Shown here in pieces: positions 31,425-49,562 of a stretch of DNA of 64,000 nucleotides. A program made the translations under genes and the position numbers. Within the stretch, counting starts at the first letter, position 1; each line of letters starts with the position of its first letter. The stretch is from Chloroflexus sp. Y-396-1. GTDB taxonomy: Bacteria; Chloroflexota; Chloroflexia; Chloroflexales; Chloroflexaceae. The notes beneath the pieces are model-generated. The model saw only the letters and a program-made list of their open reading frames with translations. It did not search any database and was not told where the DNA came from. The stretch covers positions 4,750,633-4,814,632 of the forward strand of contig NZ_KI911784.1 in NCBI RefSeq assembly GCF_000516515.1, written 5' to 3'.

Positions 31425-32261
31425 TTACAAATACTCACGCTGATTCACGCGGCGGCGCCACTCTTCTTTAATCTCAATCGCCGTACCCTGCGAAACAAGA
31501 AAGTCGAGCAGCAACCGGCCAAAGGTGTTTGCCTGTTCGAGGAAGGGAAAATGGCTGGCTTTCGGCAGTACTAGCAACTGAATCGGTCGTTCGGCCAGCT
31601 CGTTGAGGAATGAAGCGTGCGCCGGATTGACAATCGGGTCTTTGCCACCGTAGACAGCCAGTAGCGGTGTTTGCAATGAGATAATGAGCGGGCGTAAATC
31701 GGTCTCTAACAGCGATTCGTGAACTTGAGAAAGAACCCGCTCATTCAGACTTGAGGTGTCTTCTTCAATTTCTTTCTGAATATCCGGATCGGCCACCTGG
31801 AGGGTGCGCACCATACGCGCCCAACCATTCTGACTGGTATTCATGCCCAGCAATCGCGACAGGGTGCCTGGCTTGATATGCTGGGCCAAGACTTGACCGT
31901 GGAGCGGGGTAGCAACTGTCAACAGACGGTTAAACCGGTCGGGATACTGATGCGCGGCCATGATTGCAACCATACCCCCCATCCCATGACCAACGAGCGT
32001 GGCACGGGCAATGCCAAGGCGGTTCATGAACTGAATCAGCATCTCGACATACGTTGGCACAGTGAACTGATCACCACGACGGTCACTTTCGCCGAACCCC
32101 CAGAAATCAAAGGCATAGGCGCGATGTCGTTCAGCGGCCAGATCCATGATCGGCACCCAGTACCGCCACGAGCCGAGCCAGCTATGCAGAAAAATAATTG
32201 GCTGACCGCGCCCGAAAACTTCGTAGTGCGCCAGACGGTTATCGAGGTGGATAACACTCAT
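31425..32261 (-). CDS. Alpha/beta-hydrolase fold protein lacking the nucleophile Ser
   Basis: 278 residues with the full alpha/beta-hydrolase core: oxyanion strand PIIFLHSWLGS (~21-31), the GFGESD loop, nucleophile elbow LVGHGMGG (~89-96), acid Asp in YGGKDPIV (Asp208) and His in ASHFPF (His237). The elbow residue that should be Ser, Asp or Cys is Gly93 (codon GGG), so the canonical mechanism cannot work. Asp and His are retained. It may be a binding or sensory protein rather than an enzyme. Its ATG overlaps the kinase stop codon by 4 bases (ATGA), which implies coexpression with the giant kinase. Confidence 0.85.
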   Translation of the reverse strand: MSVIHLDNRLAHYEVFGRGQPIIFLHSWLGSWRYWVPIMDLAAERHRAYAFDFWGFGESDRRGDQFTVPTYVEMLIQFMNRLGIARATLVGHGMGGMVAIMAAHQYPDRFNRLLTVATPLHGQVLAQHIKPGTLSRLLGMNTSQNGWARMVRTLQVADPDIQKEIEEDTSSLNERVLSQVHESLLETDLRPLIISLQTPLLAVYGGKDPIVNPAHASFLNELAERPIQLLVLPKASHFPFLEQANTFGRLLLDFLVSQGTAIEIKEEWRRRVNQREYL

Positions 32262-35200
32262 ACTTCCACCCCCTCATCAGAGGTACCGCTTACCGTTTGC
32301 TGCAACGGAATTGCAAAAGCAAAGGTACTACCCTTTCCTAACTCACTCGTTACCCAGATTTCACCGCCGTGCATCTCCACCAATTGCTTGGCGATGCTCA
32401 AGCCCAAGCCGGTACCGCCAGCAATATCGCGCAGCGGATTATCGGCGCGATAGAACGGGCGGAACAATTTCTTCAACTGTTCCGGCGACATTCCTACGCC
32501 GGTGTCTTCTACCTCGATTTGCATCATATTAGCCCGGTTGAGGAAGGCACGCACAGTGATTGACCCGCCTTCGTAAGTGTACTTCACTGCATTCGAGAAG
32601 AGGTTGAAGATAATTTGACTCACCCGCTTTTGATCTGCCGTAACCGGCGGCAATGACGGCGAAGCCTCAATGCGCACGTTCATTCCCTTACGCTCGTATT
32701 CGAGGCGTAGGGATTGCACCACCTCTTCAATCACGGTAGGAATATCAACCTGAGTAAAGGTTAGTTTCTTCTTTGAGTCGGGTCGAGAGAATTCAAGGAT
32801 ATCTTCAATGAGTGCCCGTAACCGATTGGTATTATTCTTGATAATCGTCAGATAACTGATTTGATCCGGCGTCAGATTCAGACTTGCCGTCAGCAACAAG
32901 ACATCAACATATCCCTTAATAGCGGTAAGCGGTGTCCGCAACTCGTGGCTAACGTCTGAAATGAACTGGCGCTTCTCTTTGTCAGCCTCGATTTCACGGG
33001 TAATATCGCGCAAAACGACCACTTCACCGTAATGTTGTCCATCAGGGCTGCGTACCGGCGCAATATTGACGGCAATGACCTGGCTTGGATCGGTAAGATC
33101 AATTGACGTACTGAAAATTTTTTGCGTTTCGCGCATTCGGCGCAGTCCCTGTACAATTCCGTTGTATATCGTTTGCGCCCGCCGACGACTAGCTTCATCG
33201 TGACCAATCTCGGCCAGGTGGCTGAGTGGTTGATGTAAGAGATCATCCGCTGCGATTTCCAGAACTTGCTCGGCAGCAGGATTGAACAGCGTAACGTGTT
33301 GTTGTGGATCGAGCACGATCACTCCTTCCGACATCGAGCGGAAGACCGCCGCACTCTTAGATGTCTCTTCGCGCTGCTCTTCAAGCAGGACCGCATTCCG
33401 TAGTGCCAGATCGTTGATATAGCTGTAGAGCTGAGCATTGTTCACAGCAGCAGCAACCACGCTGGCAATCGTGCCGAGCAGGTTCATCTGCGAGTCGCTG
33501 AAGTACTGCCGCTCTGGACTTGACAAGATCAAGACACCGATTGCGGTATCGCTGGTCTGGAGCGGAACACCGGCCACTGAACAAACCTTCTCAGCGCGAC
33601 CGGCTTCCTTTATCCAGCGCGGATCGCGCTCGACATCAGGAATATTGACCGGTTCCAGATGTTGGATAATCCAGCCAGCCAGGCCTTCAGTACCATCTGA
33701 AAAGCGGAGCGGGATATTTGCAATCTCTGCCTGGCCACGTCCTTTCAGGATAGCCCGACAAACCAGATCGTTAGTAGTCGGATCACGCAGCATGAGCGAG
33801 CCACGCTCAACACCAATGCTTTCGGAAGTGAGTTCGAGTGCGCGCTGGATGATCAGGTTGAGATCGAGCTGTGTCGTCAGTTCCAGGGTAATTCGGTTAA
33901 CGGCTTCCAGCCGTTCTTTTTCCTCTGAGAGCAACCGTGTCGCTTGCTCGAGTTCGGCAGTACGTTCTCGCACACGCATGTCGAGATCAGCAGCCAGATT
34001 GCTGATCTGATCAAACAATCGTGCATTCTGTATTGCCTGACTGGCTTGACTAGCAACGGTAAAGGCAACGGCCAGTGCCTCTTCATCATAACTATCTGGC
34101 TCTCTGGCGCTAATAGTAAGCACCCCGACCAATTCATTATCAACCAGCAGTGGTGCACCAATCCATGAGCCATCACGCCAACCTAGACGACGCAGTTCAT
34201 TGAAACGCGGATCGAGCCAGGTATTCGCGATAAATACCGGCTGTTGTTCAATGGCCATAGTCTGGAAGAGGCTGCTATCTTCCAGTGCAATCCTGCTGAC
34301 TAATGTTTGTTCGGCACCAAAACCCCGTGTTTCAACCACGCGCAGATCACCGTAACCCTCATCACGCAAGAGCATGGCTGCGTCATCATACGGTATGATC
34401 CGTTGCAACTGTGTCAACACCAACGTCTGAATTTCGTTCAGCGCCAGGGTTGAGGTAAACGACTGTGCAACTTCACGCAACATATCGGCCTGATGGCGCC
34501 GCTTTTGCTCGTTAGCAAAGAGTTGTGCACTCTTGAGGGCCTGGGCAGCCTGGTTGGCGAGAATCGATAGCAGCGAAATCTGGTGTGCTGTCCATTCATA
34601 CGGTCGGCGCATACCGACCCAAATAACCGCCAGCCGCTCTTCGAGAGGACCGACGGCAATGCCAAGCGCACTACGCACACCCCATTTCAGGGCGTGATGA
34701 TCACCATTCTCAAAATCCGCCAGATCGCTAATGGCAATCGGCTGGTCACGACGCAGAAGGGCAGCCGTCAAACCATCACGCCGAAAATCGATCTGTACAT
34801 CGTCGCGAAATTCAACCCCATCGATCAGCACCTGCCGTTCGATGTTCCTCCGGCGATCAAGCCGGAGAACGGCGCCAAGTTCAGCGCGCAGCAAGCGTAC
34901 CGCCGCATCAGCCAGCAACATCAGAATCGTATCCGGTTCGAGCGTACCCGACAGATTCTGAGACACCTCGAACAGCGTGCTCATCTCAGCGGCGTTCTGT
35001 CTGATTTCACTAAACAGGCGGGCATTATTCAACGCTACTGCGGCCTGATTGGTGACCGTTGTGACAAAGCGGAGATCATTTTCATCAAACGCATGGGGGG
35101 TATAGCTCTGAATGTTAATGACACCGAGAACCTGATCACCGTAGATAATCGGCACGACGAGGTACGACTCTTCAACGGCCTCTTCATCACCGATGCGGCC

Positions 35201-38200
35201 TTGATCAATTACCAATCCCATCGCCCGCGCCGCCGCAGCGGTGCTGAGTAACAGGGGACGCCGATTACGGATCACCCAACCATTCGTGCCACCACCTAGA
35301 GGTCTTGGTTCGAGCACGAGCCGTTTGCCGCGATCATAAGCTATCGGGTAGCTAATCGTATTGGTAACCTCGTCATACAATCCAATCAACGAGGTGCTGG
35401 TATCAATAATTTCGCCGATACCTTGATGGAGCCTCTCGATGAGTTCGTAAATATCTAGTGAAGCATTAACTGCGGCACTGATGCGATTGATAATCGAGAG
35501 TTCGGCAATTCGTTGCTCACGCTCTTCAAACAGGCGCGCATTTTCCAGCGCAATGGCTGCCTGATCGGCCAGACCAACCAGCAACAGCATCTCGTCGTTG
35601 GTAAACTGCCGTCGGTAGTTGGTCATCACGCTAAGCACACCAATAATTTGCTCGCGATAGATGACCGGTACGCCCATAAACGAAATCAAGTTATTGCGGC
35701 GCTGGTAGTTGGGATAGAGTGACCCACCCAACTCATTGACATCCTCAATAATCAGTGGTTGACCGGTTTCGGCAACACGTCCGGTAAAGCCTTGGCCGAT
35801 GGGAACCCTCATCGTGCGGGCCTGTTCAGCAGGGATACCATCAAGGGCAGCTGGCGTCAGTACGTTGCCTTCACTGATCGTCCACAGCGCCACAGTAGTG
35901 ACATTAAGCTGGCGACTTACCAGTTCCAGGAGCTTGTTCAGCACCTCTTGCGGGCGTAACAACGAGGATAGAATACGCGCCGCATCAAGTAGGGTGGAAA
36001 GTTCACGAACTTTCTGACGGGTCGCTTCGGCACTGCGCTGAGCCTCAGCCGTTGCCCGTGCACGAGCAATGGCTATACTGGTTTGATTAGCAATCGTCTG
36101 ACATAGCTCAAGAGCCTGGGGAGAGAAGGTACCGTGTCGTCCGACGAAGTCTAGCCCTACCGCGCCAATTACTTCGTCGTTCAAAATAATCGGAATGATC
36201 CCGATCGAGCGAATATCAAGCGCACGGAAGGTAGGATGTGATGGTGCAAAGAGTGGATCGTTCTGGGCATCTTCTGAAACGAGTGGGCGCTTCTCTCGAT
36301 CTAGCCAGTCAACCGATGGATTATCGAACAGTTGAATCCGTAATTGATCCAGGATCCCACTATGAACGTATTCAGCTACTGCTGGTGCATATCCGCTGGC
36401 GCGATCGTATATCACCATCCGCGCCTGATCGACTCCGGTAGCAGCGGCCATTGCGTTCACAATCTCTTGATAGATAGCTTTCAAATCGGTGAGAGCGTTG
36501 GTTGCTGCTGCTACCCGGTTCACGATGGCGAGCTGCTCAACTTGCGCTTGCGCCTGTTCGAGCAGACGTGCGTTCTGTACGCCTAGGGCCAGTTGGTTGG
36601 CAATCGTCGTTAGAAATGCGCGTTCACGCTCGCGGTAAAGGCCTGGAGTGTAGCTCATGACTGCGAGCACCCCAACCACCGTTTGCTCACCAATCAGTAA
36701 TGGTACCCCTAGCCAAGAGGCTGATCGGCGATTTGAACCAAATGAAATCGGTTGGAAGTGAAAACCAGCCTGTTCGCGCTCGGTGCTCAGATCGAAAAAT
36801 TGCAGTGGTTGGCGTGTTCGAATAATGTGTTCGGTCAGACTTCCCGGTACAGGTGGCTGACGGTACTCGGTAAACGATTCGACCCCTTCATCTACTTCGT
36901 AGCAAAGGGTCATCTCACCGTTTTCGGGATCGTACAGTATTGCCACAAAGGAATCGAGTGAAAGAAACGTTTGCAAATGCCGATGGACATCACGCAGCAT
37001 TTGCTTTGGATCAAGTGTCGAGGCGATGATCTGCCCAATGCGATTGATACTGTTTAGCTCAATGATCCGTCGTTCTCGTTCGGCAAACAGACGAGCATTT
37101 TCGAGCGCAATCGCCAACTGATTGGCCAGCGCGACCAGAAAGCGGAGGGTGCGATCGTGAAATGCCTTTGGCGTGTTACTCTGCACCGAAAGCACCCCGA
37201 TCACATGCCCCTGACTGATCAGAGGGATGCCAAGCCACGAGCGAACCTGTTGTGCTTCACTGACTAGTATGTGAGCCTGAGCACGAAACTCACTCACCAG
37301 CAGATCATCGATCCGTAACGGTTGGCTTTCATCAATCACCTTCGCGATCAATCCACTCTTCGGGATGACCTGCTTAACATATTCGCTAAGGTCTTCACCG
37401 TGCTGTTTGAACAGTTCAAAACGAACGGTCTCTTGTTCAGCGTCATAACTAGCAATATAGAAGAAATCCGGTGTGCCGAGAAAGGCGACAATTTCCTGAT
37501 AGACCCGTTGGAGCAGGGTATCGAAATCAACGGTTGAAGTCAGTGCAGCGCCAACGTGAAACAGAGCTGCCATCTCTTCGGCTCGATCACGCGCCTCACG
37601 TAACAGAAGGTGGTTTTCAATGGCAATTGCTGCCTGATTGGCAAAAATTTCCAGCGGTTCAATTTCACGAGCGGTTGGGCGCTGCCGATTTTCGGTATCA
37701 CTAGCAAAGATTATGCCTAGCAGCGTACCCTCGGTTGAGTAGAGGGGAATACACAACCGATCGTCGAGTTGCCATTCGCCGGCAGAGCGAGCCTCACTGA
37801 ATGGATGGTAGTCAAAGATACCGGTATCGAACCCCTGCTCCAGTTTGTGCGCCTCTTCTTCCGGGATAAAGTAGGCTCGACCCAAGCGGAAGCGCGGATC
37901 GAGATAGCGCGTTGCCAGGACAATATCGAGAGGGTGTGTTGCCAGTTGTGCCATTTCAGCCAATGGGATGCCGGCTGCTGCTTCCAGATAGAGGTGTTGC
38001 GGATCGTCGAGACGGATCAGGCAGAACAGCACCGTGCGCAGGCCAATAGCTTCGATGATACTATACCCGATCTGTTCCAGCAGGCTTGATAACGGTTGGT
38101 CAGCCCGCATAGCCTGCCCGATCTCGAGCACATCGTTCAGGATGTCGGCCCGCCGCTGTAGTATCTTGGCCATGTGCTCAAGTTCAAGATAATGTTGAGC

Positions 38201-40630
38201 ATTGCCAATCCCAATCGCCGCCTGATGCGTTAGTGCACGAATGAATTCACTCGCTGCAACATCAAAGTGGCGCGGCTGTTCAGCCAACAGTAGTACCAGA
38301 CCGTACACACTTCCCTGATAAAAAATTGGCGCAGCCAGCGCTGAGTTGGCATCAGGATAGTAGAGTGCCTCACGTTCGTGCTCGGTCAGACCGTCGCTCA
38401 GCGCAATCTCACGGCGAGTCAGAGCTTCCTGGGCAGTCAGGATTGTAAGATCAAGCAGGTTCCCCACCATCTTACTGCGGAGGGGTGGCGTGTAACCAAT
38501 CACTTCAACGATCAAAAAGCTGCTGTTTTCCCCTTCCAGATCGTCATCAGTAAGCTGCGGGAAATGCTCAATTGATACGCTACGGTTGCTGTTGAGCCAA
38601 TTTTGGTCAACCCGTAGCGCAATCAGGCCACGGCTGGCATCGGTTGCACGCAGGGCCTGTTCCAGAACAAACGCCAGAATTTCACTCTGGTTGAGCGTAA
38701 TTGCCAATTGACTGCTGATACGTTGTAGAGCGCGCAATTGCTCAATTCGTCGTCTTAGACTACTATCTACCTGACTAAACCGACTGGCATTCGCGATGGC
38801 ATGGGCTGATTGGTTAGCTAAGATTCCTAGTAACCGTTCATCTTCAGCATTGAAGTCACCTGGCCGGGTTGAAACAAGTTCCAGCGTGCCTAACAACGTA
38901 TCACCAATGCGTAACGGCATTCCCAGATAACTTCGGGCTGGCAGGTCATTGACCAAAGTCAGGCAACCAATATTGTCGAGGACACCGAGCCATGTCGGTG
39001 GTTGGGTAAGATCGTCGATCCGTAGCGGCCGTTGGTGGCGGACCAACCAGGAACTGAGTGCGTCACTTTCTGCACCTACCTGACAGGATAGCATGTGCTG
39101 ATACGCTACCCGCAGTTGCTGATAACGTTCGTCAAAGAGGGTGATGCGCCCACCGCTAAACTGGATCAGCTTTGCTGCACTGGTTAACGTTGCTTCAAAG
39201 GTTTCCTCGAGAGAAAGATCAGCAGCGAGAAGCTGGCTGATTTGTTGTAAACGCTCTAACTCACCCGCTCGTTGCTGAAGCGCATCGTAGAGTCGACGGT
39301 TCTGTACCGTCGTAGCAATCTGCGCACTCAGAACTTGCAACAGATTTCTTTCAATCTGATCAAGCACATACCCTGCCGTGGGGTAGCCGATGGTCATCAA
39401 GCCGACGAATTGTTCTTTTCCTCGTAAGGGAACGACCCACACACTGTGACAGCCGGCCGCAATAGCGTGACTGACAATGGGGTTATTGCCATCGGTATCC
39501 AAACCTTCAGCAACTGTCATCAGCGTTGGCTCATTGCGGGCACTTATCTGTTGCAGCTCTGGGGTAAGCGGTATGTGCGTCGAATGCAGTGAAGCCGCCT
39601 CGCGTTCGCTGTACACAGCAATGGTTTGCGCAGAATCAGGTCGTTCTGGATCGATCAGGTAGACGGCACCAAAATCAGCATTGAGCGCTATAGCGATATT
39701 TTCAATTGCGCGAGCGATCGTCTCTTCGATGACCAGCCCTGAACCAATTTCGAGACTGTTCTCATACAGCACAAACAGTTCACGAGCATGACGACTTTCA
39801 TGCTGCTGAAGGGCGGTAGCGTGCAGTAACAATGCCAGCGGTCGCGCCAATGAGTGAATAGTTTGCGCTGCTTCAGGACCGGGATGGACAAGAAGTAACA
39901 ATCCTACCAGTTCGATCCCAACTGTTAATGGTTCAACCAGCAGCGGCCATTCGCCCGCTGTGTTGCGCCGTTGCAGACGGCTGTACCAAACACCCTGCTG
40001 CGTCGTTTGGAATGTTATCGCCCGAACAATTGTTTCATTGTCGCTAATAGCTAATTGTGGTGGGAAAATCGTGTCACCAGCACTACTGACTGCTCTGACC
40101 AACAATTGCTCATTAAAGTTGAGCCAGTAGAGGGCAAGAGCTTTCGTCGGCAAGAGTGCACAGGCATCTCGGCATAACCGCTCGAGGACAACATTCGTAT
40201 CACCCACGCCGATATGTTCGAGCGTGGCGTAGCCAAGACTGCGCAACTGTTCAATCCGCTCGTTGATACGTGCACGGTACCAGATCGCCAGCAGCGTCGT
40301 AATTTGAGTGGTAAGTGCAGCCGTAAACCCCGCTTCAAACGTTGCTGATAGCGTCAGCCGACCATAAAGGTGGGTAGCATCGCGCAATTCAAGCCCATAT
40401 CCGTTTGCCGGCGCTTCGCCCCAGGTGATAGTGGCAAGTTCCTGTTCATCAGCCAGCAAGGTTAAGCGGCCTCCCACACCGAGATACCGTTCCAGAACTT
40501 CACCGATAAATCCGCCCAAGACGGTCGGCTCGGTCTGTCCCAAAGGTTGCTGGCTGTATAAGGCAAGTTGTGCAAGGAGTTCCCAACCTTGGGTTGGTGC
40601 TGCGGTAACTGTTGTCTCCATAGATGACAC
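32258..40630 (-). CDS. Giant multi-GAF sensor histidine kinase
   Basis: 2790 residues without transmembrane segments, so it is cytoplasmic. After a degenerate N-terminal region, about thirteen GAF modules follow in tandem (roughly residues 150-2410), each ending in an ANQ-type helix (ANQAAIAIEN, ANQLALGVQNARL and similar) and linked by short coiled coils. A longer coiled coil (DMRVRERTAELEQATRL) precedes the last GAF. Then come a PAS domain (~2415-2550), HisKA with phosphoacceptor His2562 in SHELRTPLTAIKGY, and a HATPase domain with NLFSNAVKYT (N box), VEDTGVGM (G1), FRPF (F) and GGTGLGLS (G2). All catalytic boxes are intact. GTG start at 40630 with AGGAG 5 bases upstream. The response regulator gene lies 87 bases upstream, the obvious partner. 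Confidence 0.95.
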   Translation of the reverse strand: MSSMETTVTAAPTQGWELLAQLALYSQQPLGQTEPTVLGGFIGEVLERYLGVGGRLTLLADEQELATITWGEAPANGYGLELRDATHLYGRLTLSATFEAGFTAALTTQITTLLAIWYRARINERIEQLRSLGYATLEHIGVGDTNVVLERLCRDACALLPTKALALYWLNFNEQLLVRAVSSAGDTIFPPQLAISDNETIVRAITFQTTQQGVWYSRLQRRNTAGEWPLLVEPLTVGIELVGLLLLVHPGPEAAQTIHSLARPLALLLHATALQQHESRHARELFVLYENSLEIGSGLVIEETIARAIENIAIALNADFGAVYLIDPERPDSAQTIAVYSEREAASLHSTHIPLTPELQQISARNEPTLMTVAEGLDTDGNNPIVSHAIAAGCHSVWVVPLRGKEQFVGLMTIGYPTAGYVLDQIERNLLQVLSAQIATTVQNRRLYDALQQRAGELERLQQISQLLAADLSLEETFEATLTSAAKLIQFSGGRITLFDERYQQLRVAYQHMLSCQVGAESDALSSWLVRHQRPLRIDDLTQPPTWLGVLDNIGCLTLVNDLPARSYLGMPLRIGDTLLGTLELVSTRPGDFNAEDERLLGILANQSAHAIANASRFSQVDSSLRRRIEQLRALQRISSQLAITLNQSEILAFVLEQALRATDASRGLIALRVDQNWLNSNRSVSIEHFPQLTDDDLEGENSSFLIVEVIGYTPPLRSKMVGNLLDLTILTAQEALTRREIALSDGLTEHEREALYYPDANSALAAPIFYQGSVYGLVLLLAEQPRHFDVAASEFIRALTHQAAIGIGNAQHYLELEHMAKILQRRADILNDVLEIGQAMRADQPLSSLLEQIGYSIIEAIGLRTVLFCLIRLDDPQHLYLEAAAGIPLAEMAQLATHPLDIVLATRYLDPRFRLGRAYFIPEEEAHKLEQGFDTGIFDYHPFSEARSAGEWQLDDRLCIPLYSTEGTLLGIIFASDTENRQRPTAREIEPLEIFANQAAIAIENHLLLREARDRAEEMAALFHVGAALTSTVDFDTLLQRVYQEIVAFLGTPDFFYIASYDAEQETVRFELFKQHGEDLSEYVKQVIPKSGLIAKVIDESQPLRIDDLLVSEFRAQAHILVSEAQQVRSWLGIPLISQGHVIGVLSVQSNTPKAFHDRTLRFLVALANQLAIALENARLFAERERRIIELNSINRIGQIIASTLDPKQMLRDVHRHLQTFLSLDSFVAILYDPENGEMTLCYEVDEGVESFTEYRQPPVPGSLTEHIIRTRQPLQFFDLSTEREQAGFHFQPISFGSNRRSASWLGVPLLIGEQTVVGVLAVMSYTPGLYRERERAFLTTIANQLALGVQNARLLEQAQAQVEQLAIVNRVAAATNALTDLKAIYQEIVNAMAAATGVDQARMVIYDRASGYAPAVAEYVHSGILDQLRIQLFDNPSVDWLDREKRPLVSEDAQNDPLFAPSHPTFRALDIRSIGIIPIILNDEVIGAVGLDFVGRHGTFSPQALELCQTIANQTSIAIARARATAEAQRSAEATRQKVRELSTLLDAARILSSLLRPQEVLNKLLELVSRQLNVTTVALWTISEGNVLTPAALDGIPAEQARTMRVPIGQGFTGRVAETGQPLIIEDVNELGGSLYPNYQRRNNLISFMGVPVIYREQIIGVLSVMTNYRRQFTNDEMLLLVGLADQAAIALENARLFEEREQRIAELSIINRISAAVNASLDIYELIERLHQGIGEIIDTSTSLIGLYDEVTNTISYPIAYDRGKRLVLEPRPLGGGTNGWVIRNRRPLLLSTAAAARAMGLVIDQGRIGDEEAVEESYLVVPIIYGDQVLGVINIQSYTPHAFDENDLRFVTTVTNQAAVALNNARLFSEIRQNAAEMSTLFEVSQNLSGTLEPDTILMLLADAAVRLLRAELGAVLRLDRRRNIERQVLIDGVEFRDDVQIDFRRDGLTAALLRRDQPIAISDLADFENGDHHALKWGVRSALGIAVGPLEERLAVIWVGMRRPYEWTAHQISLLSILANQAAQALKSAQLFANEQKRRHQADMLREVAQSFTSTLALNEIQTLVLTQLQRIIPYDDAAMLLRDEGYGDLRVVETRGFGAEQTLVSRIALEDSSLFQTMAIEQQPVFIANTWLDPRFNELRRLGWRDGSWIGAPLLVDNELVGVLTISAREPDSYDEEALAVAFTVASQASQAIQNARLFDQISNLAADLDMRVRERTAELEQATRLLSEEKERLEAVNRITLELTTQLDLNLIIQRALELTSESIGVERGSLMLRDPTTNDLVCRAILKGRGQAEIANIPLRFSDGTEGLAGWIIQHLEPVNIPDVERDPRWIKEAGRAEKVCSVAGVPLQTSDTAIGVLILSSPERQYFSDSQMNLLGTIASVVAAAVNNAQLYSYINDLALRNAVLLEEQREETSKSAAVFRSMSEGVIVLDPQQHVTLFNPAAEQVLEIAADDLLHQPLSHLAEIGHDEASRRRAQTIYNGIVQGLRRMRETQKIFSTSIDLTDPSQVIAVNIAPVRSPDGQHYGEVVVLRDITREIEADKEKRQFISDVSHELRTPLTAIKGYVDVLLLTASLNLTPDQISYLTIIKNNTNRLRALIEDILEFSRPDSKKKLTFTQVDIPTVIEEVVQSLRLEYERKGMNVRIEASPSLPPVTADQKRVSQIIFNLFSNAVKYTYEGGSITVRAFLNRANMMQIEVEDTGVGMSPEQLKKLFRPFYRADNPLRDIAGGTGLGLSIAKQLVEMHGGEIWVTSELGKGSTFAFAIPLQQTVSGTSDEGVEV

Positions 40631-40717: not shown

Positions 40718-41668
40718 CTAGCCAGCAGAGCGACCGTAGACGGCAAAACTACGTTTGCCTTGCTCACGCGCCTGAATGAGTGCTCGTTGACGCACCTCTT
40801 CAGAAATCTCGCTCAGCTCACGAATATCGGCAAAGGGACCATCATCCTGCGTCAGCACACCAATTGAGAGCGACATCAGTGGTGCCTGCCGGGTCTCGCC
40901 GGTATCATCAACAAACTCAATGTAGCCCTGTTTCCGGTGGCGATAGTTATAGTGCAGACCTATTTCCTCGTCAAAACGAGTAATGATCCGCTCACAGATC
41001 GCACGACTGCGCTCAGGGATGGTAGTGATGAGGAACGATTGACCAACCGACTGCTGGCCGATGAACTCTTCATTTCCCCCCAGTTCACTCACCACTTCGT
41101 TGAGCATAAGGGCAACGAAGCGCAGAACATCTTCGCCAACGACTGAACCGTACACACCGGTAAATGTTTCAAAGCCGTTAATATGGACATTGATCAACGC
41201 CCAGCTTGATGCTGTCAGCAACTGTCGAAGCTGTTCGTTTAGTAATTCAGCCGTTGGCAAGTTGGTCACCGGATGGAGTTGGTTACGACGACGAGCTTCT
41301 TCGAGCTGATTCCTGACGATAGTATGAACCTCTTCAATGTCAAAGGGCTTGACGATGTAGTATTGAGCCTGTACTTCGCCAAGGCCAATCAGCCGATCAC
41401 GTCGCTCACCACGTGCCGTTAGAAAGATGATTGGAATGTGACGGGTTCGTGGACTGGCGCGCAGAGCACGACCAACATCATAGCCTTCCATATCAGGGAG
41501 ATTGACGTCGAGCAGAGCCAGATTGGGAGGTGTTTTACTACAAATCTCAAGCGCCTGCTGCCCACGAAGCGCTGTATAGACTTCATACCCTTGCGCGGTG
41601 AAGTAGATCTTTAGCAAGCTAGAGATGTCTGGCTGGTCCTCAACAACGAGGATGCGTTCTTTGCTCAC
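40718..41668 (-). CDS. Response regulator with degenerate GGDEF-like output domain
   Basis: 316 residues. The receiver domain (~1-120) is complete: acidic pocket VVEDQPD, phosphoacceptor Asp54 in ALLDVNLPDMEGYD, conserved Thr in FLTARG and Lys107 in IVKPFD. Residues ~130-310 have the layout of a GGDEF domain (HPVTNLPTAELLNEQL where DxLTGLPNR would be), but the GGDEF signature itself is replaced by a VGQSFLI segment, so diguanylate cyclase activity is not expected. GTG start with AGGAGA 7 bases upstream. It sits between the hexapeptide-repeat protein and the giant kinase, all on the same strand; it is the likely phosphoacceptor of that kinase. Confidence 0.9.
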   Translation of the reverse strand: MSKERILVVEDQPDISSLLKIYFTAQGYEVYTALRGQQALEICSKTPPNLALLDVNLPDMEGYDVGRALRASPRTRHIPIIFLTARGERRDRLIGLGEVQAQYYIVKPFDIEEVHTIVRNQLEEARRRNQLHPVTNLPTAELLNEQLRQLLTASSWALINVHINGFETFTGVYGSVVGEDVLRFVALMLNEVVSELGGNEEFIGQQSVGQSFLITTIPERSRAICERIITRFDEEIGLHYNYRHRKQGYIEFVDDTGETRQAPLMSLSIGVLTQDDGPFADIRELSEISEEVRQRALIQAREQGKRSFAVYGRSAG

Positions 41669-41694: not shown

Positions 41695-43185
41695 TTACAA
41701 CCGCTGACTCGCACTGATATGCTCGGATAGGCGACTGTTTTCATGTTTTGTGCGAATAGTCATCATTGATCGCGATGTTTCACCTTCTGCTGATGGACTA
41801 ACATCCGGTCGCGCCGGATCGTAGTAGACATTCGGCCAGTGATAGATGATTCGACGTGGCTCGCCAGTTGTCTCATCAATATCGTTTAGATCGTGGCCGG
41901 GCACCGTCTTCCGAATCAGATTCTGTTCGTTGTCAAAGATTATAACAGCATTTGATTCTATCATGCGACCAGGGTAGACGACAAATCCACTACCCAACTT
42001 CACGTTATGCCCCACTGCTGAGCCGAGCACCGGCATATTGACTTCGACCGGTACACCCTCGTGAATAATTTTAATCGGTTCACCCTGCAAGTTGAAGTCA
42101 GTAAAGACGTTGTTGGCGCCGATGAAGGTGTTCCGTCCCACCACACAGAGCTGCAAAGTGCTGTTTTGGGCGACCATGCTGTTTTCCATCAACACCGTCA
42201 TAAAAAGACCGGCATTAAACGGGAGGAAGCAGCGATCGCTTACCACACTGAGCATGATTTGTGATCCCTGCATGATATTGACATTGTTTCCAATATAGCT
42301 GTTAGCTATTACCACACCTGGACCAATGTAGACATCATCACCGATCACGGTAGGGCCGTGAATGATAGCAGTGGGATCAATCGAGCAGCGTTTCCCAACT
42401 TTCACTAGTGCTCGCGACGCAAGAAAATGGTTACGCCATTGCTCTTCCAAGGGATTAATCTTCTCCCAGAAGGCTTTGAGCGCGAAAGCTATTTTACCTG
42501 GAAACAGCCGCCAGTCTTCAGCCGTCCACCGCAAAATATTTTGCAAGCGAGCTTTGCTCATCCGCACATCGAGTGCGGCGGCCCATGAAAAGACCCCCAT
42601 CAAGATGTTGGCCATCAAGACGTGGAGCCAGCTCTCGATGGAAACGAAAGCGCGGATCGGGATTTGATAGGTCAGATCGCCCTTATGGGCCATGTAGCTT
42701 GGGATACGGTAATAGCCCATCTCGTGGCTTAGCGTGTCGATGACGAGCGGCTGAACCTGCGAGAGATCGTTACATCCAGCGGGCAGATAGTACAGATCGG
42801 CAACGTAATAATCGCCTACCCGGCGAATATGGCGTGAGAGCTGCGTAGCGTGACGCTCAATACTGGGATCCCCCTTCTGGCCGGTTGCCGGATTGGTAGC
42901 CTTAAATGCGATTTGAGCTGGCGTACCACGCATGCGAGCTTCACGGATGAAGGTATCGATCAGCTCTGCGTTGAAAAAAAGGTTATCACGATAGACGATG
43001 CGTTCATCTACCGCCGCTATCTCGGCTACCTCACTCAGATGATCGATTTCAGTCGCACCTTTGCCATACGTCTTCAACAAATCGCGCTGCAAAAGCCAGA
43101 GTGGCTTATTGAGAATGCGCAGATCACGAGCAGGCTCAGCGAAGGGCGGTATGATCGTTGGATCGCGTAGAATAATCCGCTCCAT
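41695..43185 (-). CDS. Hexapeptide-repeat (LbH) protein, multidomain, function unknown
   Basis: 496 residues from the ATG at 43185, supported by AAAGGA 8 bases upstream. The N-terminal ~280 residues have no family I recognise; a hydrophobic stretch near residues 195-220 (SWLHVLMANILMGVFSW) may anchor the protein to the membrane. Residues ~280-420 form a left-handed beta-helix with hexapeptide repeats (IHGPTVIGDDVYIGPGVVIA, NSYIGNNVNIMQGSQI, GSAVGHNVKLGSGFVVYPG), as in acyl- or nucleotidyl-transferases and gamma-carbonic anhydrases. Acyl- or sugar-transferase activity is possible but not shown. It is the first gene of the likely unit LbH - response regulator - kinase - hydrolase; the regulator starts 26 bases after its stop. 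Confidence 0.7.
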   Translation of the reverse strand: MERIILRDPTIIPPFAEPARDLRILNKPLWLLQRDLLKTYGKGATEIDHLSEVAEIAAVDERIVYRDNLFFNAELIDTFIREARMRGTPAQIAFKATNPATGQKGDPSIERHATQLSRHIRRVGDYYVADLYYLPAGCNDLSQVQPLVIDTLSHEMGYYRIPSYMAHKGDLTYQIPIRAFVSIESWLHVLMANILMGVFSWAAALDVRMSKARLQNILRWTAEDWRLFPGKIAFALKAFWEKINPLEEQWRNHFLASRALVKVGKRCSIDPTAIIHGPTVIGDDVYIGPGVVIANSYIGNNVNIMQGSQIMLSVVSDRCFLPFNAGLFMTVLMENSMVAQNSTLQLCVVGRNTFIGANNVFTDFNLQGEPIKIIHEGVPVEVNMPVLGSAVGHNVKLGSGFVVYPGRMIESNAVIIFDNEQNLIRKTVPGHDLNDIDETTGEPRRIIYHWPNVYYDPARPDVSPSAEGETSRSMMTIRTKHENSRLSEHISASQRL

Positions 43186-43319
43186 CGAACGAGTCCTTTC
43201 TGCCATTGTCGGCACGGAGTGAGTGTATCGTCTGTTGGTACTATAGGTTGTAGCTCCGCTAGACTCAAGGCGGACAGATTACAGTCGGATTACCGCATTT
43301 ACCGCATTAGAATGCCGAC

Positions 43320-47987: not shown

Positions 47988-48668
47988 TTAATCCTGCCGA
48001 TTACGAGAGCGGTTGATGTGCGCCATAAATTCAGCCCGCGTCTTAGAGTCTTCGCGGAACACACCACGCATCGCCGAGGTCACCATACGCGCATTCGCTT
48101 TTTTCACCCCGCGCATCACTCCGCACATATGAACGCCTTCGGCAACCACAGCAACGCCAGCAGGTTCCAGTGCCTCATTGATGAAATCAGCGATCTGTAC
48201 TGTCATTCGTTCCTGAACTTGCAGACGTCGGGCAAACATCTCGACGATACGCGGAATCTTGCTTAGACCGACAACCTTGCCGTTTGGAATGTAGGCCACA
48301 TGGACCTGACCAAAGAATGGCAACATATGGTGCTCGCAGAGACTATAATAGTCAATGTTGGTGACCAGCACCATCTCATCATAAGCGACACTGAAGATGG
48401 CGCCGTTGATCAACGCTTGGGGATCAATATGATAACCGGCTGTTAGCTCAGCGTACATTTTGGCAACCCGTGAAGGGGTCTTCTGTAACCCCTCACGATC
48501 CGGAACCTCGCCGATGGCCGTAAGAATAGTACGGACTGCCTCTTCGATGCGGGGATCGGAAACAAATGACATTCCCTCCAGTTTACCACGACCAGGAACG
48601 ATCAGACTTTCGTAGTGTTCCTCATCAATATCAGGGGTGGGATGATAACCGTTACCATTGCTAGACAT
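47988..48668 (-). CDS. folE: GTP cyclohydrolase I
   Basis: 226 residues, type I (zinc-dependent). It converts GTP to 7,8-dihydroneopterin triphosphate, the first step to folate, biopterin-type cofactors and queuosine. Signatures: zinc ligands in [19 protein letters not shown] and [11 protein letters not shown], plus the conserved [23 protein letters not shown] region around residue 145. An N-terminal extension of ~40 residues precedes the core. Its start lies 69 bases after the tandem PTPS gene, so GTP cyclohydrolase and the next pathway enzyme are cotranscribed. Confidence 0.97.
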
Positions 48669-48737
48669 ACTAGATACTCTCCATTACACATACGAACTGC
48701 GCAATATGCGCATGAGCGGGCGAAAGACCACTTGCAA

Positions 48738-49562
48738 TCAGACTTGAACAGGAGACGGACCAGCGTAGCTGAAGATATTCTTGCGCGTTTCCCACAAGCG
48801 GAGAAGGGCAAGACGACCTTCAAGCAAAGGCGCTAGCTCGTTCCAGAGATAGACAATAATATTTTCGGCGGTTGATGGCCGGTCAGCAAAGGCCGGAATT
48901 TCACGATCAAGATGACGTAGGTGAAGTTGATCGATCACCGAATGGACGGTTCGGTCAAGCCATTCAAGGTCAACCAACATTCCGGTTGCCGGATCAATCG
49001 GCCCTTGCACTGTTACCTCCAGGGTATAGTTGTGGCCGTGGCCGTTGGGATTGTTACACTTACCGTAAATAAGGCGGTTTTCTTCATTGCTGAGTGTAGG
49101 TGCGTGGAGGCGATGTGCTGACGCGAAAGTATAGAGACGGCTAAATTGTGTCTCACCTGTGCCGTCATAATCGGCCCACAAATCGGGCTGTTCGTAGAGA
49201 CGTAAATGTACCAGGCGAGCATGAGCTGGCAAGCGCGCCGCGATCAGTCGCCAGAGCACCCGCACCAGATTTTCGGTCGTTGGTACCTGATCCCGAAAGT
49301 AAGGCGTGTCAAAATTGAGGTGTTTGTGATCAAACTCCTCAAGGACGTCGTTGACAATCGCCTTCAATTCGGTCATATTCATAACCATCCCAGTGCGTTC
49401 ATCCAGTGCACCGGTGATGCTGACATCGAGTGTATAATTGTGCCCGTGACCATACGGGCTGGTGTACGGCCCAAAGACACGCTCGTTTTCTTCGGCGCTC
49501 CAATCATCTCGCCAGTAGCGATGAGCAGCCGAAAATTCAAAGCGACGAGTAGCGACAACCAC
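48738..49562 (-). CDS. Tandem-domain 6-pyruvoyl-tetrahydropterin synthase / QueD family protein
   Basis: 274 residues made of two fused PTPS/QueD domains (~1-130 and ~138-270); normal members have one of ~120-140. Zinc His ligands are present in both: His14, His39, His41 and His150, His175, His177. The catalytic Cys is present only in domain 2 (Cys169 in GKCNNPNGHGH); the equivalent position in domain 1 is Tyr33 (GPYTSPYGHGH). The DHKHLN and TTEN / STAEN elements are conserved. GTG start at 49562 with AAAGGA upstream. With folE it would process 7,8-dihydroneopterin triphosphate, either to 6-pyruvoyl-tetrahydropterin (biopterin-like cofactors) or to 6-carboxytetrahydropterin (queuosine); the sequence does not decide. 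Confidence 0.9.
   Translation of the reverse strand: MVVATRRFEFSAAHRYWRDDWSAEENERVFGPYTSPYGHGHNYTLDVSITGALDERTGMVMNMTELKAIVNDVLEEFDHKHLNFDTPYFRDQVPTTENLVRVLWRLIAARLPAHARLVHLRLYEQPDLWADYDGTGETQFSRLYTFASAHRLHAPTLSNEENRLIYGKCNNPNGHGHNYTLEVTVQGPIDPATGMLVDLEWLDRTVHSVIDQLHLRHLDREIPAFADRPSTAENIIVYLWNELAPLLEGRLALLRLWETRKNIFSYAGPSPVQV

Follow-up and report, generated by a model that had tools for sequence, protein, structure and literature searches.

A giant histidine kinase with a long GAF array and its gene neighbourhood in Chloroflexus and its relatives

The kinase locus and its domains

The DNA analysed here (the window) is a stretch of 64,000 nucleotides from Chloroflexus sp. Y-396-1. On one strand it carries, in this order, genes for a hexapeptide protein, a response regulator (RR), a giant histidine kinase and an alpha/beta hydrolase (Table 1). 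A preliminary description of the same DNA had placed here a soluble kinase of 2790 residues with about thirteen tandem GAF domains, one PAS domain and an intact HisKA/HATPase core; its coordinates, strand and length agree with our check of the open reading frame. Pfam scores twelve stretches each of GAF_2 (PF13185, E 1.1e-166) and GAF (PF01590, E 8.7e-162) in the kinase, near the number described and clear of the fewer than eight that were to count against it, and an HMM built from the kinase's own modules likewise places 12 GAFs between residues 281 and 2403.

Table 1. Features of the kinase locus. Positions are those of the window, residue numbers (in brackets or after "residues") those of the kinase; f8 is a family of another Chloroflexota class.
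Feature	Position	Strand	Basis or remark
Hexapeptide (left-handed beta helix) protein, first gene of the order-conserved run	41695..43215	-	Pfam, loci comparison
Response regulator (RR), intact receiver and degenerate GGDEF	40718..41668	-	Pfam, alignment
Giant multi-GAF histidine kinase	32258..40630	-	2790 aa, GTG start, single frame
Short GAF-like unit, residues ~35-138	40217..40528	-	AlphaFold2 model; no Pfam match
GAF0, divergent 13th GAF, residues ~145-295	39746..40198	-	AlphaFold2 model; weak HMM matches in some relatives
GAF1 (281-449)	39284..39790	-	Pfam and own-module HMM
GAF2 (454-619)	38774..39271	-	Pfam and own-module HMM; clade with f8 modules
GAF3 (628-815)	38186..38749	-	Pfam and own-module HMM
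GAF4 (827-1011)	37598..38152	-	Pfam and own-module HMM; clade with f8 modules, support 1.0
GAF5 (1016-1183)	37082..37585	-	Pfam and own-module HMM
GAF6 (1188-1358)	36557..37069	-	Pfam and own-module HMM
GAF7 (1363-1528)	36047..36544	-	Pfam and own-module HMM; in GAF7-9 model
GAF8 (1540-1702), most conserved GAF	35525..36013	-	Identity 0.936 to six congeners; Lcd1 cAMP-GAF 5w10 among PDB relatives
GAF9 (1707-1874)	35009..35512	-	Pfam and own-module HMM; in GAF7-9 model
GAF10 (1879-2039)	34514..34996	-	Pfam and own-module HMM
GAF11 (2044-2207)	34010..34501	-	Pfam and own-module HMM
GAF12 (2237-2403), preceded by longest linker	33422..33922	-	Pfam and own-module HMM
PAS (2428-2543)	33002..33349	-	Pfam
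HisKA (2553-2619), SHELRTP H-box	32774..32974	-	Pfam, 68.4 bits
HATPase_c (2666-2777)	32300..32635	-	Pfam
Alpha/beta pseudo-hydrolase, GHGMG for GxSxG	31425..32261	-	Overlaps kinase stop by 4 bases

The first 280 residues of the window kinase give no Pfam match. Upstream of GAF1 the own-module HMM detects a weak extra GAF in the relatives L008, L010-L013 and L016 (18-43 bits) and fragments only in L014 (6 bits); it finds none in the window kinase, the congeners L002-L007 or L009. In an AlphaFold2 model of residues 2-469 (mean pLDDT 83), the chain folds like a GAF between about 145 and 295, and a shorter stretch, about 35-138, makes a further GAF-like unit, which is barely covered by fold comparison, since this spans mostly residues 173-468. 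A fair count is thus 12 GAFs by sequence, 13 with the divergent GAF0 and 14 with the short unit. The absence of a membrane helix is as described: over 19 residues, hydrophobicity is highest from residue 230 on (mean 2.19), and this stretch is beta strand in the model. The N-terminus of the L031 kinase is hydrophobic (residues ~5-27, mean 2.56 over 19), so that this relative, unlike the window kinase, is possibly membrane-bound.

PAS domain and catalytic core match Pfam, and the window kinase has its H-box and all three ATP-binding boxes, N, G1 and G2. Among the 47 kinases compared, the H-box SHE(L/I/F/M)R(T/S)P with its His is universal, as is the G1 box by pattern; the G2 pattern is found in 46, L028 reading GTGLGLL. 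A strict N-box pattern recovers 22 of the 47 and a looser one 34; outside the latter, the region reads NLYSNALKY in L014 and NLASNAVKY in L021, and the search found no N box in L031 and L042. By these motifs the window protein is a HisKA/HATPase_c sensor histidine kinase.

Six of seven congeners have a full-length orthologue of 79-84% identity; in the seventh (G002) the match ends at residue 1378, at the start of a contig. Six other genomes of the family also have full-length orthologues (50-60% identity), and each of the 41 genomes sampled from the order has some match, in part generic kinase or GAF similarity. That separate genes have been fused by assembly, a danger named in the preliminary description, or by a missed frameshift is hardly credible, and nothing was found in its favour: the same frame, of nearly the same length and with no internal stop, recurs in the six congeners, two of which (G003 and G005) are single-contig genomes, and the same is true of family members such as G011, G012 and G017-G019. 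We therefore reject an assembly artefact; the giant GAF-array kinase is genuine and old. A search of a plasmid collection with the kinase end gave no match.

Age, spacing and number of the GAF modules

The preliminary description had suggested that the array might be a site of internal duplication. Compared by BLAST (4 of 333 modules, shorter than 110 residues, being left out), modules of the window kinase share at most 40% local identity with one another (19-40% over BLAST-alignable stretches), as against 64-97% between each module and its own counterpart within the genus. Recent tandem duplication is thereby rejected. In a midpoint-rooted FastTree phylogeny of 236 modules from 22 proteins (6 of 242 modules, with fewer than 115 match states, dropped), most modules form clades of their own: support is 1.0 for GAF4, GAF5 and GAF8, 0.987 for GAF1, 0.914 for GAF10, 0.897 for GAF2, 0.852 for GAF6, 0.833 for GAF11 and 0.796 for GAF7, and poor for GAF12 (0.61), whose clade also contains the N-terminal GAF0 modules of relatives, GAF3 (0.544) and GAF9 (0.167). 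These clades span families, and those of GAF2 and GAF4 span classes, including as they do modules from f8.

The number of modules is far less constant. Complete frames of relatives have 4 to 17 GAFs detected by the own-module HMM, which weak modules may escape. Most loci of the window's own family, f1, have 11-13, with 6-7 in L027 and L028; the f4 loci L018-L021 have 13, 9, 10 and 9, the f2 loci L022-L024 and L029 have 9, 9, 7 and 7, all four f3 loci have 17, all eleven f8 loci 11, and the f41 locus L042 has 10. Among further complete frames the fewest are 4 (L060) and then 5 (L049, L053 and L068), and Herpetosiphon giganteus (L050), among the best 80 of 570 matches, resembles the f3 loci both in its 17 GAFs and in its linkers. 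The extra modules of the 17-GAF f3 kinases are GAF6-like and GAF9-like. A kinase of 2765 residues in family f14 (L043, genome G049) has 14 GAFs, and shortened or split forms occur in L030, L024 and L049; that of L030 consists of two frames of 1199 and 1226 residues, of which the C-terminal one alone was counted. Measured against its own genome, its relatives and the literature, the array is as unusual as first supposed: the next GAF-richest frame of the genome has 5 PF01590 matches (6 by the own-module HMM), and an excerpt of PMC6696110 gives cyanobacteriochromes "up to seven" GAFs.

Spacing between neighbouring GAFs was measured from a fixed point in the last helix of one to the first helix of the next. 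After setting aside 15 junctions without an anchor and one of more than 90 residues, 473 of 489 remained, from 47 proteins. The spacing is 34, 38, 41, 52 or 59 residues in 458 of them, that is, 34 plus 0, 4, 7, 18 or 25, and 463 fall in only two of the seven classes modulo 7 (classes 6 and 3); as a control, spacings inside GAFs (122-178 residues) occupy all seven. The 15 junctions of other lengths, all in f8 loci, measure 33 (eight), 40 (two), 66 (one) and 76 residues (four), and even there the spacings mostly follow one another along the chain as elsewhere (34, 38, 41, ... 41, ... 52 or 59). Heptad-periodic linkers are already established, in the portion of PMC6798134 available to us; with a four-residue stutter counted, after the same source, as a second permitted class, the present linkers follow the heptad-multiple rule of YF1-type proteins. 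The array is thus an accordion, in which GAF number changes while the linkers keep two heptad phases. Related receptors that share a kinase core and differ in their sensor modules, of which 4 to 17 are detected, thus form a natural series, and the reach and summation of signals along coiled-coil spines become testable by comparison.

Other tandem-GAF proteins of the same genome obey the same rule. A set of 13 stretches with 14 proteins supplied 26 junctions, of which three had no anchor and one of 148 residues was dropped; all 22 countable ones lie in the same two phase classes. The rule is therefore general here, the argument for a lever is not special to the giant kinase, and the latter is an extreme case of the tandem-GAF linker rule, not an exception. 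In a model of GAF7-9, continuous helices of 51 and 45 residues are predicted across the GAF7-8 and GAF8-9 junctions, with block pLDDT of 79-93 at the junction helices; the pTM of 0.52 makes the domain arrangement uncertain. The earlier proposal of signal integration, or of a long helical lever, gains from these two predicted helices and from the two linker phases, and loses from the occurrence of the same phases in ordinary tandem GAFs.

Mean identity to the six congeners is 0.966 for HisKA, 0.936 for GAF8, 0.914 for HATPase, 0.909 for GAF7 and 0.884 for GAF9, and is lowest for the N-terminus (0.716) and GAF1 (0.672); since dS was saturated or undefined in most comparisons, selection on single modules is judged by identity alone. 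The best PDB sequence match of GAF8 is the Lcd1 GAF in its cAMP complex (5w10, E 8e-10; 24% identity, Z 19.8), ahead of DevS-type and other GAFs. This likeness is one of sequence and fold, and GAF8 may or may not bind a cyclic nucleotide. As modelled, GAF8-9 superposes on GAF-A/B of PDE5A (Z 23.9, 316 residues, rmsd 3.1), and the GAF pair of a cyanobacterial adenylyl cyclase (1ykd) is the top Foldseek match; the helix-joined pair would thus resemble the tandem GAFs of PDE2A, PDE5A, PDE6 and 1ykd, which differ from the giant kinase in having two GAFs and an enzyme output. Aligned with the DevS-type chain 2vzw, GAF8, the one module so compared, has no His opposite that chain's HH site, whose His, ahead of the GVPV strand of DevS-type GAFs, we take to be the haem ligand. 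Phytochromes and cyanobacteriochromes carry a conserved Cys for bilin in the GAF pocket. There are 11 Cys in the 2790 residues of the kinase, with none in GAF3, GAF5 or GAF8-GAF11, and one Cys-His pair, at residues 394-395 of GAF1, two residues before a predicted strand. Neither haem nor bilin appears supported for GAF8 by its residues; other modules could still bind either. The Cys at 394 is nearly invariant in the alignment of GAF1; in the window kinase His is next to it.

Partner genes

Homologues of the RR and the hydrolase flank the kinase on the same strand in 30 of 30 order loci, no more than 1.1 kb away except in L030, where the kinase is split and the distance reaches 4.8 kb; the L009 locus ends within the RR, with only 82 of its residues inside. 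The hexapeptide gene is present in all 29 order loci that reach far enough and, given enough flank, stands upstream of the RR in all 25 loci of the order and in 27 of 37 loci elsewhere. In the other class, RR and hydrolase accompany the kinase in all twelve f8 and f41 loci (L031-L042). No match to either was found in the stretch examined around L043, the 14-GAF kinase; the contig does encode an RR-type domain, some few kb further upstream. When 251 Chloroflexota genomes were searched with the C-terminal domain of the RR, 45 matched below the chosen cut-off of E 1e-34: 25 of 26 from the order, none of six others from the class and 20 of 219 from elsewhere in the phylum. Among named records, the best 80 of 570 matches include Oscillochloris, Kouleothrix, Herpetosiphon, Anaerolineae, Thermoflexus and Ardenticatenia; from about L093 onward the receiver alone matches, and L052, labelled Gracilibacteria, may be misbinned. 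In L077 and L082 the hydrolase follows the RR and no giant kinase was found between them. Identity of the f8 RR to that of L074 (Chloroflexota) is 79-90%, with Anaerolineales records at a similar level, which suggests that f8 is Anaerolineae-like. A gene for a single-domain receiver stands between kinase and pseudo-hydrolase in L022, L025, L026, L044, L046 and L031-L042; none was seen there in the window.

An operon common to Chloroflexales and a second Chloroflexota class is new here; the preliminary description had missed it, although it tells more than the array itself. A word search of one library of open papers found none describing the giant GAF-array kinase or its operon, and the Deinococcus protein in the part of PMC11219805 at hand has two GAFs. 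Systems of this overall kind are known; the size range, the two-class operon and the pseudo-enzyme partners are new.

Both partners look like enzymes that have lost their chemistry. In the 17 RRs aligned, the receiver residues E10, D11, D54, T84 and K107 are invariant, and by that sequence evidence the protein is a two-component response regulator. The GG[DE]EF signature is found in none of the 17 (five f8 and f41 RRs read GGDNF at the site, order members VGPDF-like letters), and Pfam GGDEF scores 22.4 bits on the window RR, below its cut-off of 23.8; membership of the diguanylate cyclases is accordingly rejected. PleD, the best PDB match of the RR, also combines a receiver with a GGDEF-related domain; unlike PleD-type REC-GGDEF proteins, however, the RR lacks the signature and probably acts by protein contact.

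The hydrolase next to the kinase has lost its nucleophile. The slot holds Gly in 42 of 46 loci and Asp in four (L031-L033 and L038), and in 24 further copies downstream of an RR it holds Gly (16), Ala (3), Asp (2), Ser (2; L067 and L068) or Thr (1), so that Ser is missing from 68 of 70 copies, among which the same genome may occur twice, since the genome sets may overlap. In 20 further loci another hydrolase gene precedes the RR, and all 20 of the copies read keep Ser; the upstream copy of L054 is unreadable by the HMM, the L066 copy, cut at the end of the locus, was unread, and in L059 the upstream genes face the other way. Some distance off, L030 encodes one more Ser-hydrolase (74 bits). All seven hydrolases aligned end in a KxEW tail with R/K residues, which is recovered by pattern in 38 of 46 (missed in L008, L015, L022-L024, L027, L028 and L036). 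RsbQ (1wom) and D14/KAI2 are among the PDB matches (E about 3e-10 to 4e-11), outranked by meta-cleavage hydrolases and esterases. Proteins like RsbQ and D14/KAI2 serve elsewhere as small-molecule receptors. The probable role of the pseudo-hydrolase is to bind, either a ligand or the kinase, and not to hydrolyse a substrate.

In some relatives these genes are part of a longer run. That of L074 (4676-19568) comprises ten genes, for DUF4388, a Ras-like GTPase, a Ser-hydrolase, a V4R protein, the hexapeptide protein and an acyl-ACP-reductase-like protein (its score below curated cut-offs), then RR, giant kinase, single receiver and pseudo-hydrolase; L058, L063, L069, L070 and L088 are similar. DUF4388, presumably the domain named PATAN, and the GTPase both occur in the run in 17 of 30 outside-order loci with enough flank, a set in which L048-L051 are grouped with the order, everything else above L030 except L044-L047 counts as outside, and L085 (labelled Chloroflexales) and the divergent RR loci L083, L084, L086 and L087 are included; among order loci with enough flank, DUF4388 was found in 0 of 2 and the GTPase in 0 of 3. 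The V4R gene is present in 10 of 18 loci of the order and in 14 of 34 elsewhere. In the window genome a GTPase gene (64% identity) directly follows a DUF4388 gene (L131:7763-9134), unlinked to the kinase: on a contig of 4.89 Mb (G000:C1) the pair lies at about 390 kb and the kinase at 4.79 Mb. Among the PDB relatives of this GTPase are Arf GTPases and the GTPase of gliding motility, MglA. In cyanobacteria, pilus motility is a process on which PATAN proteins act. Because GTPase and PATAN share the run in many outside-order relatives, and the GTPase resembles MglA, control of cell polarity or gliding through them is a reasoned guess at the output. At L132:2293-5219 a protein of 711 residues with an acyl-ACP-reductase-like C-terminal part is followed at once by an alpha/beta hydrolase.

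A sensor that may add up several signals

Since the kinase is real and old, and its partner genes have stayed with it in two classes, it probably serves in earnest to integrate signals. The reading we favour, with some confidence though far from certainty, is that of a cytosolic, presumably dimeric kinase of lever type that integrates signals and acts on the pseudo-GGDEF RR. Twelve to thirteen ancient GAFs, each conserved in its own right, would sit along an unbroken helical spine of fixed phase, with one PAS domain and the HisKA/HATPase core below them. A small molecule or protein binding to some of them, perhaps to the most constrained, GAF7-9, would twist or shift the spine, whose summed state would reach HisKA and set the phosphorylation of the RR encoded alongside; having no GGDEF signature, the RR would then work through protein contact. 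The output, perhaps polarity or gliding, is hypothetical and the weakest step. All2699, with three GAFs and a histidine kinase at its end, as here, and the seven-GAF PtxD likewise carry tandem GAFs on one chain, as described in the excerpted texts of PMC6696110 and PMC5812497.

A more elaborate version, which we think unlikely as a whole, would make the pseudo-hydrolase a small-molecule receptor docking on the GAF spine by its C-terminal KxEWxRRV-type tail, the RR the steersman of a Ras-like GTPase/PATAN polarity module, and GAF number a quantity tuned by gain and loss of whole modules with helical phase intact, in a Chloroflexota system that crosses classes.

Alternatively, most of the GAFs may bind nothing and form a ruler or dimerisation spine that sets how far an N-terminal docking point lies from the kinase, with one or two modules sensing. 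A detected module number that varies between 4 and 17 among relatives with complete frames, linker phases that are kept, and the much weaker conservation of GAF1 (0.672) and the N-terminus (0.716) than of GAF7-9 (0.884-0.936) would all suit such a spacer, and we regard it as a serious but clearly less likely candidate; the separate orthologous identity that modules keep over families would, however, be needless in a plain spacer. The hydrolase gene directly downstream of the kinase invites comparison with RsbQ-RsbP, where an alpha/beta hydrolase is likewise encoded beside a PAS-bearing signalling protein, and RsbQ-PAS modules whose output is a kinase have been described (PMC3183031, in the part accessible to us). 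A hydrolase product read as a small molecule by the PAS or GAFs would then be the signal, and RsbQ and D14/KAI2 are among the PDB matches, though others rank higher. Yet RsbQ requires its catalytic triad, according to the same part of PMC3183031, and the present system differs in having a GAF array, a histidine kinase with RR and a hydrolase with Gly for the nucleophile Ser in the window and Ser in 2 of 70 copies. Membership of the RsbQ-like enzymes is therefore rejected, the likeness being kept as an analogy, and the scheme as a whole is improbable; in the Anaerolineae type the upstream paralogue, which keeps its Ser, could serve as an RsbQ-like enzyme. A light sensor with an array of bilins, in the manner of the cyanobacteriochrome PtxD, is more improbable still. 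The fold resembles that of phytochrome GAFs, the window lineage is phototrophic, and a seven-GAF photoreceptor is on record (PMC5812497, in excerpt). Against this, the Cys content is low, GAF8 having none. Moreover, the best 80 of 570 matches include relatives from Herpetosiphon giganteus, with 17 GAFs, and from Anaerolineae records, lineages that are not known as phototrophs. The kinase also differs from the multi-GAF cyanobacteriochromes in its 12-14 GAF-like units, with up to 17 in relatives.

The conserved set of pseudo-enzyme genes, a signature-less GGDEF and a nucleophile-less hydrolase, is likely to be a control system in gliding bacteria, whose gliding mechanism is called obscure in the excerpt of PMC5812497. 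Elsewhere in the window (47988-49562), Pfam identifies a GTP cyclohydrolase I gene adjoining one for 6-pyruvoyl tetrahydropterin synthase.
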